A DNA stretch of 64,000 nucleotides from Spirochaetota bacterium (GCA_017999915.1 JAGNKX010000014.1:62001-126000); one strand, 5' to 3'. Numbered from the stretch's first letter, positions 4,710 through 53,486 are shown. Notes: generated by a model not told the origin, from the sequence alone. Program-made: numbers and translations.

Positions 4710-5393
4710 ATGAAACGTGGTAAAAAAATAGCGGCGGCGAAGACCAGGGTCGACAGGAACAAGCTGTACAATGTCGATGAAGCGGTCAAGCTGATGAAAG
4801 AGTGCAAGTATTCCAAATTCGATGAAACGGTGGACATACAGATCAAGCTGATACACAAGAGCTTCCAGAATATTCGCGGCTCGGCGAGCCTTCCCGCGGG
4901 GACCGGCAAGGAGAAGAAGGTCCTGGTCATCTGCAAGGGAGATAAGCAGCGGGAAGCGCAGGAAGCCGGCGCCGATTATGTTGGCGCCGAGGATATGATC
5001 GAGAAGATCAAGACCGGGTGGATCGATTTCCAGGCGGTCGTGGCGACGCCCGACATGATGAAGGAGGTCGGCAAGCTGGGGCAGACGCTCGGCAAGAAGG
5101 GCCTCATGCCGAAGCCGAAGTCCGGGACCGTGACCGAGGACATCAAGGGCATCGTGAAGGAGCTCAAGGGCGGCCGGGTCGAGTACAAATCGGACAAGAC
5201 CGGAGTCATCCACATGGGCATCGGCAAGATATCGTTCACCGACGATGCGATCATCAGCAACGTAAGCGCTTTTTTCAATCAGGTGATGAAGGACAAGCCC
5301 TCCGACGCGAAGGGCAATTACATAAAATCGGTGTTTATCAGCTCCTCCATGGGGCCCGGTATCAAACTCAACCACAAGGGGATTGAAAAATAA
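4710..5393 (+). CDS. rplA: Ribosomal protein uL1
   Basis: 227 aa, normal length. The conserved segments [15 protein letters not shown] and [10 protein letters not shown] are present. L1 builds the mobile E-site stalk and in many bacteria also represses rplKA translation. Its stop overlaps the rplJ start (TAATG at 5391-5395), so the two are translationally coupled. Confidence 0.96.
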
Positions 5394-5914
5394 TGGTAAA
5401 GCAATATAAAATCGATGAAGTTTCGTCCATGGTCGCCCAGCTGAAGGAGAAGGGCAACATCATCCTCACGAACTATTCCGGGATCAGGGTTAAGGACCTG
5501 AGCAAGCTTCGCAAGACCCTCAGAGGCAAAAACGCGGATTACCGCGTTGTCAAGAACACGCTTTTCAAGCGGGCCCTGAAAGAAATGGGAATCGATGGCC
5601 TTGACGAGTACCTGAAGGGGCCCGTTGCCGTCGCCTTCGCAAAGGATGATGCGGGAGAGGTCGCCAAGGCGCTTAAGGATTTCGCCAAGGACGTGGAGAA
5701 GTTCAGTTACTCCGCCGGCTACCTCGACAATGTCCTCTATAATCAGGACCAGATCAAGACAATAGCCGATCTTCCGACTAAAGAGGTCGTTCTCGCCCAG
5801 TTGATGGGCATGATCAACGGGCCGGCACGGGGCGTTGCGGTGGGCATGAATCAGATCATGGCTTCCCTGGCGCGGGGCATCAAGGCGGTAGCCGAGGTCC
5901 AGAACAAGCAGTAG
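5393..5914 (+). CDS. rplJ: Ribosomal protein uL10
   Basis: 173 aa. The N-terminal globular rRNA-binding part has LTNYSGIRVKDLSKLR and VVKNTLFKRA; the C-terminal alpha-helix that carries L7/L12 dimers follows. Because the start overlaps rplA there is no room for the usual L10-binding leader in front of the gene, unlike many bacteria. A 176-bp gap instead follows it. Confidence 0.95.
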   Translation: MVKQYKIDEVSSMVAQLKEKGNIILTNYSGIRVKDLSKLRKTLRGKNADYRVVKNTLFKRALKEMGIDGLDEYLKGPVAVAFAKDDAGEVAKALKDFAKDVEKFSYSAGYLDNVLYNQDQIKTIADLPTKEVVLAQLMGMINGPARGVAVGMNQIMASLARGIKAVAEVQNKQ

Positions 5915-47443: not shown

Positions 47444-47507
47444 CAATGGCCGGGTCATTCTACCTGGCCATTGTATTTTATAACGCGGCGGCAGCGCCGC
47501 GTTTTGT
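47444..47507 (+). terminator. Two terminators after groEL
   Basis: First stem: 47444-47455 with 47462-47473 (12 bp, one G-U), then TATTTTA. Second stem: AACGCGGCG (47482-47490) with CGCCGCGTT (47495-47503), then TTG. Confidence 0.85.
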
Positions 47508-47552
47508 CTCATGAGACAGGCGTTTCAGCGGTGACAAAAAGAAATAATACAG

Positions 47553-47562
47553 GTATCGATAC
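47553..47562. promoter_or_regulatory. Palindrome GTATCGATAC before the STAS/HATPase operon
   Basis: Perfect 10-bp palindrome 48 bp before the first gene, in the stretch expected to hold the promoter. A GTGACA hexamer lies 17 bp upstream. It could be an operator. Confidence 0.3.
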
Positions 47563-47610
47563 ATTGTTCCGATCATAGAAGAGGGCGAGTAGCCTCAGGT
47601 CCGCGGGAAA

Positions 47611-48531
47611 ATGCATGCCCGCCGGCCCGACAATAACGCGCTGGTGCCTATGACAAACAATGTAATAGTCGTGCCGAACCGTTGCAAGGACCAATATGAG
47701 TTCGAGTACCTGATCGACCTGCAGGAGAAAATACTGAAGGACGCCAGGGAACTGGACCTGTCGCGGATCTCCTTTATCGAGCCATATTCGATGCTATCGC
47801 TGCTGCTGATGGGAAGGAACTATCTGCGGAAAAGCGGCAACAGGCTCAGGCTCACCGGCATCCCCATCAACATTCACCAGTACCTGCACCGGATGGATTT
47901 CTTCGAGACCGGCGTGTTCGACGTGCCCGAGCGGCTCAACGAGAAAATGCTCCTCAAGCGAAGCTCCTTCAGCAACCGCATACTGGAAATAACCGAGATT
48001 CCCAACAAGGAGCGCGAAAGCGTCCGCGTCATTACGGCCATCGTGGGCGTGTTCAGGAAGCGCGCCGCCCATATCCTCAAGTACTGGCTCACGGACCGCA
48101 TTATCGATTATTTTGTCACCGTCATATCCGAGATATGCCAGAACATCTACGAGCACAGCCTCGATTCGGGATACCTTGCCATGCAGACCTATACCATAGG
48201 CAAGGAAAACATCGTGAGGCTTTCAATCGGGGATTCCGGCATAGGGATACAGAAAAGCTTTGAATCAAGCGAGATCAGGTATGAGTCGCCGGCCCACCTC
48301 ATCGAGATGGCGCTCACGACGCCCCTGTCAAGCAAGAGGGAATTCGGGTACGGTCTCTGCCAGGTTAATGCCATCGTGGAGAAGCTGAAGGGTTCCATCT
48401 TCATCAGATCGGGCAACGCCTCCGTATCGACGCTGTACCACAAGAAAAGCGCCGGCGCGTCCTTTATCTTTCAAAAAAATGATCTGAGTCCCTTTGACGG
48501 AACACAGATTTCAATATCATTAATGGGATAA
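47611..48531 (+). CDS. STAS-like + HATPase (anti-sigma-factor-kinase-like) protein
   Basis: 306 aa; Met14 at 47650 is an alternative start. Residues about 17-110 look like an STAS fold: DLSRISFIEPYSMLSLLL occupies the usual core strand and helix, but the normal phosphorylated Ser is replaced (EPYS). Residues about 170-285 form a GHKL ATPase: N-box EICQNIYEHS, G1 box IGDSGIGI, G2 box FGYGLCQV. There is no His-phosphotransfer domain. This combination suggests a partner-switching kinase or ATP-dependent switch that acts on STAS proteins, such as the next gene product, 9 bp downstream. Exact role unknown. Confidence 0.78.
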   Translation: MHARRPDNNALVPMTNNVIVVPNRCKDQYEFEYLIDLQEKILKDARELDLSRISFIEPYSMLSLLLMGRNYLRKSGNRLRLTGIPINIHQYLHRMDFFETGVFDVPERLNEKMLLKRSSFSNRILEITEIPNKERESVRVITAIVGVFRKRAAHILKYWLTDRIIDYFVTVISEICQNIYEHSLDSGYLAMQTYTIGKENIVRLSIGDSGIGIQKSFESSEIRYESPAHLIEMALTTPLSSKREFGYGLCQVNAIVEKLKGSIFIRSGNASVSTLYHKKSAGASFIFQKNDLSPFDGTQISISLMG

Positions 48532-48540
48532 GAAGGGACC

Positions 48541-49092
48541 ATGGTCATCAATATTCAAAAAAAAGCGGAAGAACTGAAGATAAAGACGCCGGACCTGATC
48601 ACGCGGCCCTTGGGAAGGCGTATGTACAATTCCGTCAAGGGTGTGGTTGAGCATGTCGATGGGGGGGAGACGGTGGTCCTTGATTTCAGCGGGATCAAGG
48701 TCATCGATTCGTCGTTCATAGACGAGATGATCGTGAAGCTGATCCTTGATTCGAAGTCATTGCCGCGGGCGTTCTACATAAAGCTTAAGAACATATCGGA
48801 GATCGCGGAGACGAATATCGACCTGGTGTTTCGCTCCTATTCCAATTATAAAAATAAAAAAATTGTTGTAATTACCGAAAACATCTGCCAGAATAATGTC
48901 TTCTTTATCGGTCCCCTCTCGGACCGTGAGCGTGACGTTGTGGAATTCCTGAGGGTGAACAAGTCGATCACCGTGGATGATATCGTCAAGTTTACGGGAC
49001 AAACACGGGAGCAGGTGATGAAAACAATGGAAGACCTTGACGCCATGCGGGCCGTCAAGAAAGTGAAGAATGATGCTTTTTTTCCCGTATAG
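48541..49092 (+). CDS. STAS-like (DUF4325-type) + winged-helix protein
   Basis: 183 aa. The first two-thirds resemble DUF4325: ITRPLGRRMYNSVKG, then VVLDFSGIKVIDSSFIDEM, where the Ser pair after Asp sits at the site phosphorylated in SpoIIAA-type antagonists. Residues about 125-183 (LSDRERDVVEFLRVNKSIT...DDIVKFTGQTREQVMKTMEDL) fit a winged helix-turn-helix, so it may bind DNA. Likely substrate or partner of the upstream ATPase, transmitting its state to transcription. DUF4325 next to an ATPase is a known genomic pairing of unclear function. Confidence 0.72.
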   Translation: MVINIQKKAEELKIKTPDLITRPLGRRMYNSVKGVVEHVDGGETVVLDFSGIKVIDSSFIDEMIVKLILDSKSLPRAFYIKLKNISEIAETNIDLVFRSYSNYKNKKIVVITENICQNNVFFIGPLSDRERDVVEFLRVNKSITVDDIVKFTGQTREQVMKTMEDLDAMRAVKKVKNDAFFPV

Positions 49093-49140
49093 TCCGCCGG
49101 TGCTGAACGAGTCCGGGCGGGGAAGGAAATCGCGGCGGCC

Positions 49141-49608
49141 ATGAAACCATCGGCAAAAAATGTTACCAGGACAAAAGATGACACCCTCTACGGCCTCCTA
49201 TCCTCGTATAAATCGAGCTATACCTATATCCGGGTTCTCATGTCAGAGGACGATGATTCGGTCATTCTCCAGCTGACGGGAAATCCTAAGAATTTCGAGG
49301 CCCTTGCGCAGGATAGATACGCACACTACCGGGCACTTCGGAGGCTTGAGATCGGCGCACCTAAGGTGTTTTTGAAATATATCGTGCCGGAAAACCTGAT
49401 TGCCATCCTGGGGCCGATGCTTGATTTGAACATACCCGCCGACAAGGTGGTGATAACGGACAGCCTGAAAAAAAACGGCATCTATGCCATTGAAACGGCC
49501 CTCAAGTATAAAGTGAGAATGGTCCAGGGGGTCAGGAAGATACTCAACATGAGTCCGCAGAAGCGCTATGAGGTCATAGAAAAATACTTATCGGGATATC
49601 AGGAATAG
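49141..49608 (+). CDS. Unknown soluble protein, 155 aa
   Basis: No signal or membrane segment. A Lys/Thr-rich start is followed by alternating strands and helices (TYIRVLMSEDDDSVILQLTG, FLKYIVPENLIAILGPMLDL, KVRMVQGVRKILNM), suggesting an alpha/beta fold. I recognise no family. It lies 48 bp after the STAS-like gene and 4 bp before the next, so it belongs to the same operon. Confidence 0.65.
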   Translation: MKPSAKNVTRTKDDTLYGLLSSYKSSYTYIRVLMSEDDDSVILQLTGNPKNFEALAQDRYAHYRALRRLEIGAPKVFLKYIVPENLIAILGPMLDLNIPADKVVITDSLKKNGIYAIETALKYKVRMVQGVRKILNMSPQKRYEVIEKYLSGYQE

Positions 49609-49612
49609 GGAC

Positions 49613-50641
49613 ATGACTGAAGAATTCGATTCACTGGGTGATAAGACAAAACAGGTCGACATCGCAATGAAGTACACGAAGGGCGATATCCTCAAGGCCA
49701 AGGAAATGGCCTCGGGGCAGTACCTTGATGTCATGGTCGTCAAAGGGAAGTTTCTGGTGGATACCAAGGGCACCTCGGGTTTTTTTCTCGCCTTTTTCAA
49801 TTATATCCAGGAATACATAGCCAATGTAACGCCAATCATATCGTCGCGGCCCGTTCTTTTCGAGAAGACGAGAATATTCGACGACTGGAGAACCCTCTAC
49901 AACGATCTCCAGGCTTTCAAGGACAGCAGCGACATTGTGGATTCGCAGAACTTCGCCTATTTCCTCATAGATTCGTTCGTGGGGTATGACGTTTTTCCCG
50001 ACGTGCAGGAGCATAACCTCGACGATTTGACGAGAACCATCACCGAGATCATCGGCAAATCCTTCAACGCGGCCTCGGTGAAGTGCCAGATCGAGATGGA
50101 GGCAACCAGTTCACTCGCCCTTGAGACGGCGGGTGTAAGGATCGATATGCCCGGATCGGAAGGGCAACCCGGCGCTCAGATCCCCGCCGGGCCTGAGGAT
50201 GAGCGGATCAAGGCGATCGAAAGGGAAGCGAAATACGTGATCGAAGGGGCCGCCGTGCTCTCGCCGGTAAAGGGGAAAAATGTCAGCGACCTTATTTCAG
50301 GTGACAAGATAAGGGTCCTTCTGACGGGCAAAGACGTTGTCACTGACAAGATATTGAAGCTCCTGAACGCCTACGATGCAGAAGGGGCCCGTACGTCCAT
50401 CACCGGAAGGGTGAAGGCGAAGGTTCCGCTGGAAAAGAAGGGATATATTCTCTATGCCCTTGTCGCCAAGGGCGTGCTGACGAAGATCATCGAGGAAGAG
50501 AACGTCAAGATCATGCTAGATCAGCCCCTGGATGAATTCGCCGAGGAACCGTCCGGCTTTGACAGCCGCCTGGTGTATATCATTTCCGCCATCGTAGGGC
50601 TGGTCATCCTGCTCGGAATAATACTCTTCGTGCTACTCTGA
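49613..50641 (+). CDS. Tail-anchored membrane protein of unknown function
   Basis: 342 aa without a signal peptide. One strongly hydrophobic helix (about residues 321-342, LVYIISAIVGLVILLGIILF) ends the protein, so the whole 320-residue body should face the cytoplasm. The body has two parts: about 1-175 and, after a Gly/Pro-rich linker (EGQPGAQIPAGPEDE), about 200-310, with KGKNVSDLISGDKIRVLLTG resembling a small beta-rich module. No family recognised. 2-bp gap to the next gene. Confidence 0.68.
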   Translation: MTEEFDSLGDKTKQVDIAMKYTKGDILKAKEMASGQYLDVMVVKGKFLVDTKGTSGFFLAFFNYIQEYIANVTPIISSRPVLFEKTRIFDDWRTLYNDLQAFKDSSDIVDSQNFAYFLIDSFVGYDVFPDVQEHNLDDLTRTITEIIGKSFNAASVKCQIEMEATSSLALETAGVRIDMPGSEGQPGAQIPAGPEDERIKAIEREAKYVIEGAAVLSPVKGKNVSDLISGDKIRVLLTGKDVVTDKILKLLNAYDAEGARTSITGRVKAKVPLEKKGYILYALVAKGVLTKIIEEENVKIMLDQPLDEFAEEPSGFDSRLVYIISAIVGLVILLGIILFVLL

Positions 50642-50643
50642 GT

Positions 50644-51534
50644 ATGGGCAGTCGACTAACATGGGTTCTCCCGCTCATTTTTGCCGTTTCACTGACCTTC
50701 ATGGGACAGATGCCCGACTGGAAATATTTCAGGGACCGTGAAGGCAACACCTACTTCATCGATCAGGCCGGGAAAATACGCCTTACCACCGTGAAGAAAT
50801 ACCGCTATAAGGCGGTATCACCCCGCGGTATCGATTATTACCTCGAATACGGCGCCGAGCTTATCAAGGAGCACCGTCCCATTGAGGGCCTGTCCGTTCT
50901 CAAGTCCATCTGCGCCCTCCCGAACGATAACAACAGGATTTACCGGGCCCAGGTAAAAGCCGCGGAGCTTGTCATGGCCCTGAGGAAGCGCAACGGCAAT
51001 CGTTTCGACAGGATGAACGAGTCAGCGTCTCTCATGTTCTTCCAGACGGATGAAGGGATTGAAATCATCAATGACCTGATGCGCTATTCTCTCAGGGCGC
51101 CCGGACCGGTCGAGGTCATCCGCAAGGTCGACCGCGCCGGCCTGGATTACCGCTATTCCGGGATTCTCCTCGGCATTCTTCCGGCCGGGGCCGGCGATGG
51201 CCGCGGCGAGGCGGCCTATGAAATGCTGGTGGCCGTTGACACTGAGAAGTTTGCGGTTCCCTATAAGAATCTTTCCGAAGCCATTGAAAAATGGAAAGGT
51301 AACATCGGGTATGAAGGCCTCACCCGCGAGGTGCTGGCGCAGGACGGTAAACGGTTCATCTGCTCATTCAGGAACGGCGGGGAGCCGCGGTACGCCGGGA
51401 TCGAGGGCGTTTTTCTCAACGGGACCTACAGCCATTACGTGAGGCTCATTTCATCGGGAAAGGCATATCCAGGCCTGGAGAAGCGCATGAGGACCCTCAT
51501 GGACGGGTTCCGAGTCGTTGGCCGGAACGACTGA
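50644..51534 (+). CDS. Exported protein of unknown function
   Basis: 296 aa. The start MGSRLTWVLPLIFAVSLTF is a signal peptide or anchor. A short module DWKYFRDREGNTYFIDQAGK right after it looks like a small beta-domain; a helical part with KEHRPIEGLSVLKSI follows. It is the last of five closely spaced genes; the minus-strand GNAT gene converges 5 bp later. Confidence 0.65.
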   Translation: MGSRLTWVLPLIFAVSLTFMGQMPDWKYFRDREGNTYFIDQAGKIRLTTVKKYRYKAVSPRGIDYYLEYGAELIKEHRPIEGLSVLKSICALPNDNNRIYRAQVKAAELVMALRKRNGNRFDRMNESASLMFFQTDEGIEIINDLMRYSLRAPGPVEVIRKVDRAGLDYRYSGILLGILPAGAGDGRGEAAYEMLVAVDTEKFAVPYKNLSEAIEKWKGNIGYEGLTREVLAQDGKRFICSFRNGGEPRYAGIEGVFLNGTYSHYVRLISSGKAYPGLEKRMRTLMDGFRVVGRND

Positions 51535-53132: not shown

Positions 53133-53486
53133 ATGATCGATGTAACAGCATATGATACCTACGCAATAATTTCGATCAAGATCGAGGAAATTGACTTTGT
53201 CAAAACCCCCCGGCTGTCGGAGATTATCAATCAGAACCTGGAGAAAATAAAGTATCCTGACATTATACTTAACCTGGATAATCTCTATTATATTGATTCG
53301 ACCGGGCTCAGCTCCCTGATCAACATCAGCCGCAAGATCAAGGAGTATGATAATGAGATGGTCGTGGTCTGCAGCAGCGCGAAAATCCTTCAGCTCTTCG
53401 ATATAGCCAAGGTGGGAATGTTTTTTAAGATTTTTGACACCGTGGAACGGGCCGGCCAGTATCTGGCAACGCGGAAAAAGCCGTAA
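53133..53486 (+). CDS. STAS-domain anti-sigma factor antagonist
   Basis: 117 aa, single STAS domain of SpoIIAA/RsbV type. ILNLDNLYYIDSTGLSSLIN carries the canonical phosphorylation Ser56 (I-D-S-T-G). It stands alone after a 271-bp AT-rich gap with no kinase beside it; the STAS/HATPase protein 4.6 kb upstream is a possible partner. Confidence 0.85.
   Translation: MIDVTAYDTYAIISIKIEEIDFVKTPRLSEIINQNLEKIKYPDIILNLDNLYYIDSTGLSSLINISRKIKEYDNEMVVVCSSAKILQLFDIAKVGMFFKIFDTVERAGQYLATRKKP

Follow-up and report, generated by a model that had tools for sequence, protein, structure and literature searches.

The closest described system to the locus discussed here is CapK/CapS, in which CapK is a kinase and CapS a Ser-phosphorylated STAS-wHTH repressor, encoded before immune operons (PMC13373217, EMBO J, June 2026). 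A known or predicted immune operon is preceded by CapKS in 348 of 443 cases (PMC13373217). CapK is activated by ssDNA, and phosphorylation splits the CapS dimer. The phosphorylation site, Ser54 of CapS, has been shown by experiment, and Asn218 of CapK is catalytic (PMC13373217). A conserved aromatic residue, Trp68 in CapK and Phe54 in VapK, contacts ssDNA, and deletion of the N-terminal HTH of CapK has no effect (PMC13373217). The wHTH of CapS contacts DNA through Asn145, Lys151 and Gly169-170 (PMC13373217). In VapS, no more than a short tail follows at the C-terminus, and the protein binds VapC, a PIN nuclease (PMC13373217).

The locus lies in a window of 64,000 nucleotides (the whole stretch of DNA that was analysed) from an uncultured order of spirochaetes. 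An operon of five genes, for products here called p1 to p5, had been proposed from the DNA alone. All five ORFs are present as described, with intergenic gaps of 9, 48, 4 and 2 bp (Table 1), and the arrangement is conserved across relatives. The 5' neighbour of the operon is groESL, with two terminator-like hairpins in between, and a convergent gene begins just past the 3' end. The pair's kind (CapK/CapS) has been known since 2026; what appears to be new is its fixation throughout an order, together with membrane/envelope cargo. The literature searched holds no description of this fixation with p3-p5 as cargo, nor of the union of the pair with these three genes, which the original prediction had called undescribed.

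Table 1. Features of the operon and of the closest pair outside spirochaetes (window coordinates unless a locus is named)
Feature	Position	Strand	Description	Basis
Terminator-like 12-bp stem	47444-47473	+	3' of groEL; sets the operon apart from groESL
Genus-conserved element AAGAAATAATWCAG-N16-CCGATYATAGAA	47539-47580	+	before p1; fixed spacer
Gene 1 (p1)	47611-48531	+	STAS-GHKL kinase, CapK-like, without N-terminal HTH	HATPase_c E 1.8e-7; hhalign to CapK; orthologue starts
p1 N-box, Glu174 (48130-48132) to Asn178 (48142-48144)	48130-48144	+	equivalents of CapK Glu214/Asn218	CapK alignment
Gene 2 (p2)	48541-49092	+	DUF4325 STAS domain and degenerate winged helix, CapS-like	DUF4325 in 33/33 members; hhalign to CapS
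Ser58 codon of p2	48712-48714	+	predicted phosphorylation site (= CapS Ser54), in D-x-S-F-x-x-E	CapS alignment
p2 region matching the CapS DNA-reading helix (residues 154-168)	49000-49044	+	least conserved, acidic; columns 158 and 164
Gene 3 (p3)	49141-49608	+	soluble, 155 aa	phylum search; AlphaFold2 model
Gene 4 (p4)	49613-50641	+	LIC10486-family-like, C-terminal membrane anchor	NCBIfam LIC10486_fam E 2.9e-15; hydrophobic C-terminus 31/31
Gene 5 (p5)	50644-51534	+	exported protein	invariant predicted mature N-terminus; single copy in seven families
Nostoc linckia NIES-25 pair	L151:3935-4783 and 4862-5455 (AP018224.1 91099-99869)		closest non-spirochaete pair found

A kinase and a putative substrate related to CapK and CapS

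Profile searches returned the domains that had been proposed, HATPase_c behind a weak STAS_2 match in p1, and DUF4325 (E 1.6e-7 in the window's protein) with a weak wHTH in p2. As a reference for CapKS, we used five plasmid CapK-CapS pairs, reached via the CapS fragment in a PDB alignment; three of the five stand before multiubiquitin/ThiF genes. In hhalign comparisons, p1 matches CapK over the full length (275 columns, probability 99.0, E 4.2e-18), and p2 matches CapS over 148 columns (probability 96.6, E 6.6e-10).

Like CapK, p1 combines a STAS domain with a GHKL kinase. Its gene is directly followed by the STAS-wHTH gene in 32/32 spirochaete loci, and the pair heads the operon. The N-box residues Glu174 and Asn178, the latter equivalent to the catalytic Asn of CapK, are invariant (33/33). 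In p2, Ser58 corresponds to CapS Ser54 in a common D-x-S-F-x-x-E motif, in which Ser58, Asp56 and Glu62 are invariant (33/33), Phe59 is present in 32/33 members and the neighbouring position 57 varies. The phospho position of the p1 STAS domain is taken by an invariant Tyr59 (33/33), so this domain is itself no substrate of this type. The original prediction, according to which the phospho-Ser is lacking in p1 and retained in p2, is thus borne out, and homology supports its proposal that the GHKL ATPase and the STAS-wHTH protein may act via Ser phosphorylation.

There are also clear differences from CapK/CapS. Unlike CapK, p1 has no N-terminal HTH. The protein starts at the STAS domain, its true start probably being Met14 at 47650, where the orthologues begin; one plasmid CapK homologue (L118) is likewise devoid of the HTH. 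A conserved aromatic residue at the ssDNA-contact position is also lacking. The column aligned to CapK Trp68 holds Phe in 15, Cys in 10 and Leu in 8 members, in an alignment that is moderately certain with a gap nearby. Conservation thus does not support the view that p1 might sense ssDNA. In p2, the DNA-contact residues of CapS are replaced. The column of CapS Asn145 is never Asn and mostly Glu, and that of Lys151 is Lys in 2/33 and Glu/Asp in 22/33 members. The frequency of the majority residue averages 35% in the reading helix, compared to 61% in the STAS domain, and the net charge of the wHTH is zero or negative in 29/33 members. Finally, the spirochaete cargo is a membrane/export module, and the pair is kept vertically across one order and forms a separate branch of the kinase tree.

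A plasmid of Nostoc linckia NIES-25 gave the one full-length match in a tblastn search of plasmids with p1 (34% identity, E 1e-32). In the comparison of the pairs, p1 has E 8e-36 and p2 a profile E of 1e-10, and the two Nostoc genes stand in the same order as in the spirochaetes. The pair is followed, as in CapKS, by a defence operon, here with genes for MBL and E2-ThiF, and all the products are annotated as hypothetical proteins. The Nostoc homologue of p2 retains a CapS-like ASNRLKRL in the reading helix, which places the erosion of this helix on the spirochaete side. A tree of 23 kinases groups the proteins of the spirochaetes and of Nostoc in a single clade (91/89), with CapK, in a clade of its own (100/100), and VapK outside it; this placement is provisional given several long branches. 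Judged from sequence, the spirochaete pair is related to CapKS and presumably CapKS-like in its working, not a strict member. A match to p2 on a Streptomyces plasmid sits in a beta-helix protein and is due to chance. Planctomycetota DNA (L083:4746-5909) encodes a STAS-GHKL relative of p1 that stands alone, with no STAS partner adjoining.

Two other known arrangements are more distant. VapK/VapS/VapC gave a weaker profile match (probability 65). It shares with the spirochaete locus a STAS-GHKL kinase without HTH, next to which come a DUF4325 STAS protein and then a target gene. However, p2 has a winged-helix fold, and the next gene does not encode a PIN protein but p3, which is without Pfam match. 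With SpoIIAB/SpoIIAA and RsbW/RsbV, the pair would have in common a GHKL kinase that phosphorylates a Ser of a STAS partner. In contrast to these, the kinase has a STAS domain of its own and the substrate a winged helix. The conserved operon contains no sigma or anti-sigma gene.

Conservation of the operon within one order

In a search of 198 genomes of the phylum, p2 had 32 strong matches, every one in the order of the window, and p1 is present in exactly the same 32 genomes. The genes for p1-p2-p3-p4 occur in this order in 20/20 loci of a first set, with p5 adjoining in 17/20. In a second set, the p1-p4 order is kept in 32/32 relatives, far above chance, and p5 lies inside the retrieved sequence in 26/32. 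The flanking genes vary between loci, and groESL is found 5' of the operon in just 7/20, which indicates that the p1-p4 cluster is kept as a unit. All seven families carry the gene for p5 once in each genome; in two of them (f2 and f7) it is relocated. According to the phylum search, p3 is confined to this order, normally with one copy per genome. The pairwise divergences of the five proteins correlate (r 0.79-0.90), which is the expectation under common descent. The pair consists of fixed core genes that are vertically inherited in one spirochaete order.

Family f5 is an instructive exception. Its three genomes (90-96% complete) lack both p1 and p2, and p3-p4-p5 are still together. The operon thus consists of a regulatory pair and a separable target module.

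Two minor variations were observed. One genome (G139) has an additional, solitary p3 copy (L131:6058-6600) distant from the operon, and in four loci of families f3 and f6 (L041, L042, L043 and L049) p4 and p5 stand about 450-650 bp apart, and the interval contains small ORFs on the opposite strand.

The proteins of the target module

The last three products had been described as soluble, C-terminally anchored and exported, and as impossible to assign. For p3 and p5 of the window, profile searches indeed found no domain match, and Pfam searches with all members gave scattered matches at chance level only. The AlphaFold2 model of p3 (mean pLDDT 85) matches no fold clearly; its best VIA match is the ACT part of an aspartate kinase (Z 4.6), and it has no Foldseek match below E 0.3. 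Kinship of p3 to p2 or p4 was rejected on comparison. The export signal of p5 holds, and the predicted mature N-terminus, Q-M/L-P-x-W (about 50707-50721), is invariant in all 18 orthologues, which suggests that the exposed N-terminus may have a role.

The C-terminal anchor of p4, behind a soluble part, is likewise confirmed, and present in all members. Of the three proteins, p4 alone can be placed, although remotely. It matches NCBIfam LIC10486_fam (NF047678) over its whole length (residues 12-339). The score of 56.2 bits is far below the cut-off of 500, so p4 is a distant relative and not a member of this family. Weak DUF4899 matches were found in Pfam searches for 14/31 members. The structure model (pLDDT 84) has no decisive fold match; residues 217-311 weakly resemble Tudor/SH3 barrels (Z 5.0), and the N-terminal part is barely covered. 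The family of p4 is present in 141/247 genomes of the phylum, and genomes of this order have some 3-5 members each. All that is known of LIC10486 of Leptospira is that it is a hypothetical protein that is seroreactive (PMC3798601).

Possible targets of the pair

We propose, with a probability of roughly 0.6, that p1 and p2 are a switch of the CapK/CapS kind, from a sister lineage, which alters the adjacent p3-p4-p5 upon phosphorylation of Ser58. A signal would trigger the GHKL kinase p1, which would bind the STAS domain of p2 and phosphorylate Ser58. The phosphate would then disrupt the other contact of p2 and alter the activity of p3-p4-p5, a module with the membrane-anchored LIC10486-family protein p4 as its central part. 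The proposal is based directly on homology, gene order, co-occurrence, the invariance of catalytic and target residues, and the lost DNA-contact residues of CapS; the phosphorylation, its direction and its output are what we infer. Several points count against it: the kinase activity of p1 could have been lost, no fold can be assigned to p3 and p5, the upstream element described below is confined to the genus, and the persistence of p3-p4-p5 in family f5 means that the pair is not essential to their function.

With respect to the other contact of p2, the balance tips slightly towards one of the module's own proteins (p3, or p4 through its cytosolic part), bound in the way VapS binds VapC, and away from a DNA repressor of the CapS type, because the reading helix is eroded. 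The original prediction had envisaged a route from the envelope to DNA, via p2. The part that leads to DNA is weakened by the low conservation of the reading helix and by its acidic residues where CapS reads DNA, and the order of the genes, a regulator pair followed by membrane and exported proteins, fits envelope genes as the output equally well. More tentatively, the switch of an immune operon may have been domesticated in the ancestor of the order, have lost DNA reading, and now control a LIC10486-family protein by direct contact. As a stable, vertically inherited component of an order with quite different cargo, the CapKS-like pair shows the module to be more general than immunity.

The most serious competitor, which we regard as less likely, is that p2 is an autorepressor of the CapS type. 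Unphosphorylated dimers would sit on the element at 47539-47580, phosphorylation of Ser58 would free them and turn p3-p4-p5 on, and the helix would have co-diverged with the operator. The CapS-like architecture of p2 does extend through the wHTH, and CapS is autoregulatory (PMC13373217). The variability of the wHTH is also compatible with DNA binding, as a recognition helix can diverge along with its local operator. Moreover, the element AAGAAATAATWCAG-N16-CCGATYATAGAA is recognisable, with small changes, in 6/6 loci of the genus, and its strict version occurs once in this genome, before p1. It is probably a promoter or operator. However, the reading helix, the least conserved part of p2, varies within the genus although the element is kept, and the acidic residues in the Asn145 and Lys151 columns and the charge of the wHTH also speak against such a repressor. 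An order-wide operator was not found, since footprints in other genera share no motif and the element is absent outside the genus.

A different operator had been suggested at the presumed promoter, the palindrome GTATCGATAC at 47553-47562. The palindrome is present, but falls exactly inside the variable 16-nt spacer and is not conserved, so that its role as promoter or operator was rejected. With 94 perfect 10-bp palindromes in the window, it is probably there by chance. A consensus scan detected no sigma-70 promoter 5' of p1. The sequence CCGAT, which we take to be -10-like, and the 16-nt spacer recall sigma-28 promoters, although the -35 half mismatches.

Sigma factors are common targets of STAS/GHKL pairs. 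Canonical partner switching on an unlinked sigma factor or other regulator, with the proximity to p3-p5 reflecting co-expression only, would agree with this and with the canonical STAS protein encoded close by (53133-53486). It is nevertheless improbable, because the p1-p4 order is kept in 32/32 loci despite changing flanks, and because the neighbouring STAS gene is linked within the genus only. This gene encodes a free-standing protein of the anti-anti-sigma type (IDSTGL). Least probable of all is an unrecognised anti-phage system, with CapKS-like DNA-damage control of p3-p4-p5 as new immune cargo: CapKS and the Nostoc relative precede immune operons, but this operon is single-copy, order-wide and retained in separate families, not on a mobile island, genomes across the phylum carry several paralogues of the p4 family each, the conserved aromatic residue is absent at the CapK Trp68 position, a PADLOC search with p1-p5 gave a single weak match (p2), and the domain searches place p3-p5 in no immune family.

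For the proposed switch acting on p3-p4-p5, the paralogues of p4 are informative. In 22/24 loci (L132:3896-5535 in the window's own genome, L148-L150, L155 and L157-L173), the gene for the order's closest p4 paralogue lies directly 3' of a CheY-like receiver. A phospho-signalling protein thus accompanies each of two members of this family, a pairing that supports, without proving, a role of p4 as the controlled element. Under the tentative domestication scenario above, LIC10486-family proteins would be general outputs of phospho-switches in the order, p4 for the STAS pair and the paralogue for the CheY-like receiver. The operon offers a first testable handle on this membrane-anchored family found throughout spirochaetes including Leptospira. 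Both exceptions among the receiver-paralogue loci are in family f5, where the receiver gene persists elsewhere; a joint loss of the receiver and p1-p2 in this family was rejected, as the receiver is merely relocated. In L132 and L150, a HATPase-HDOD-like gene is located just 5' of the receiver.
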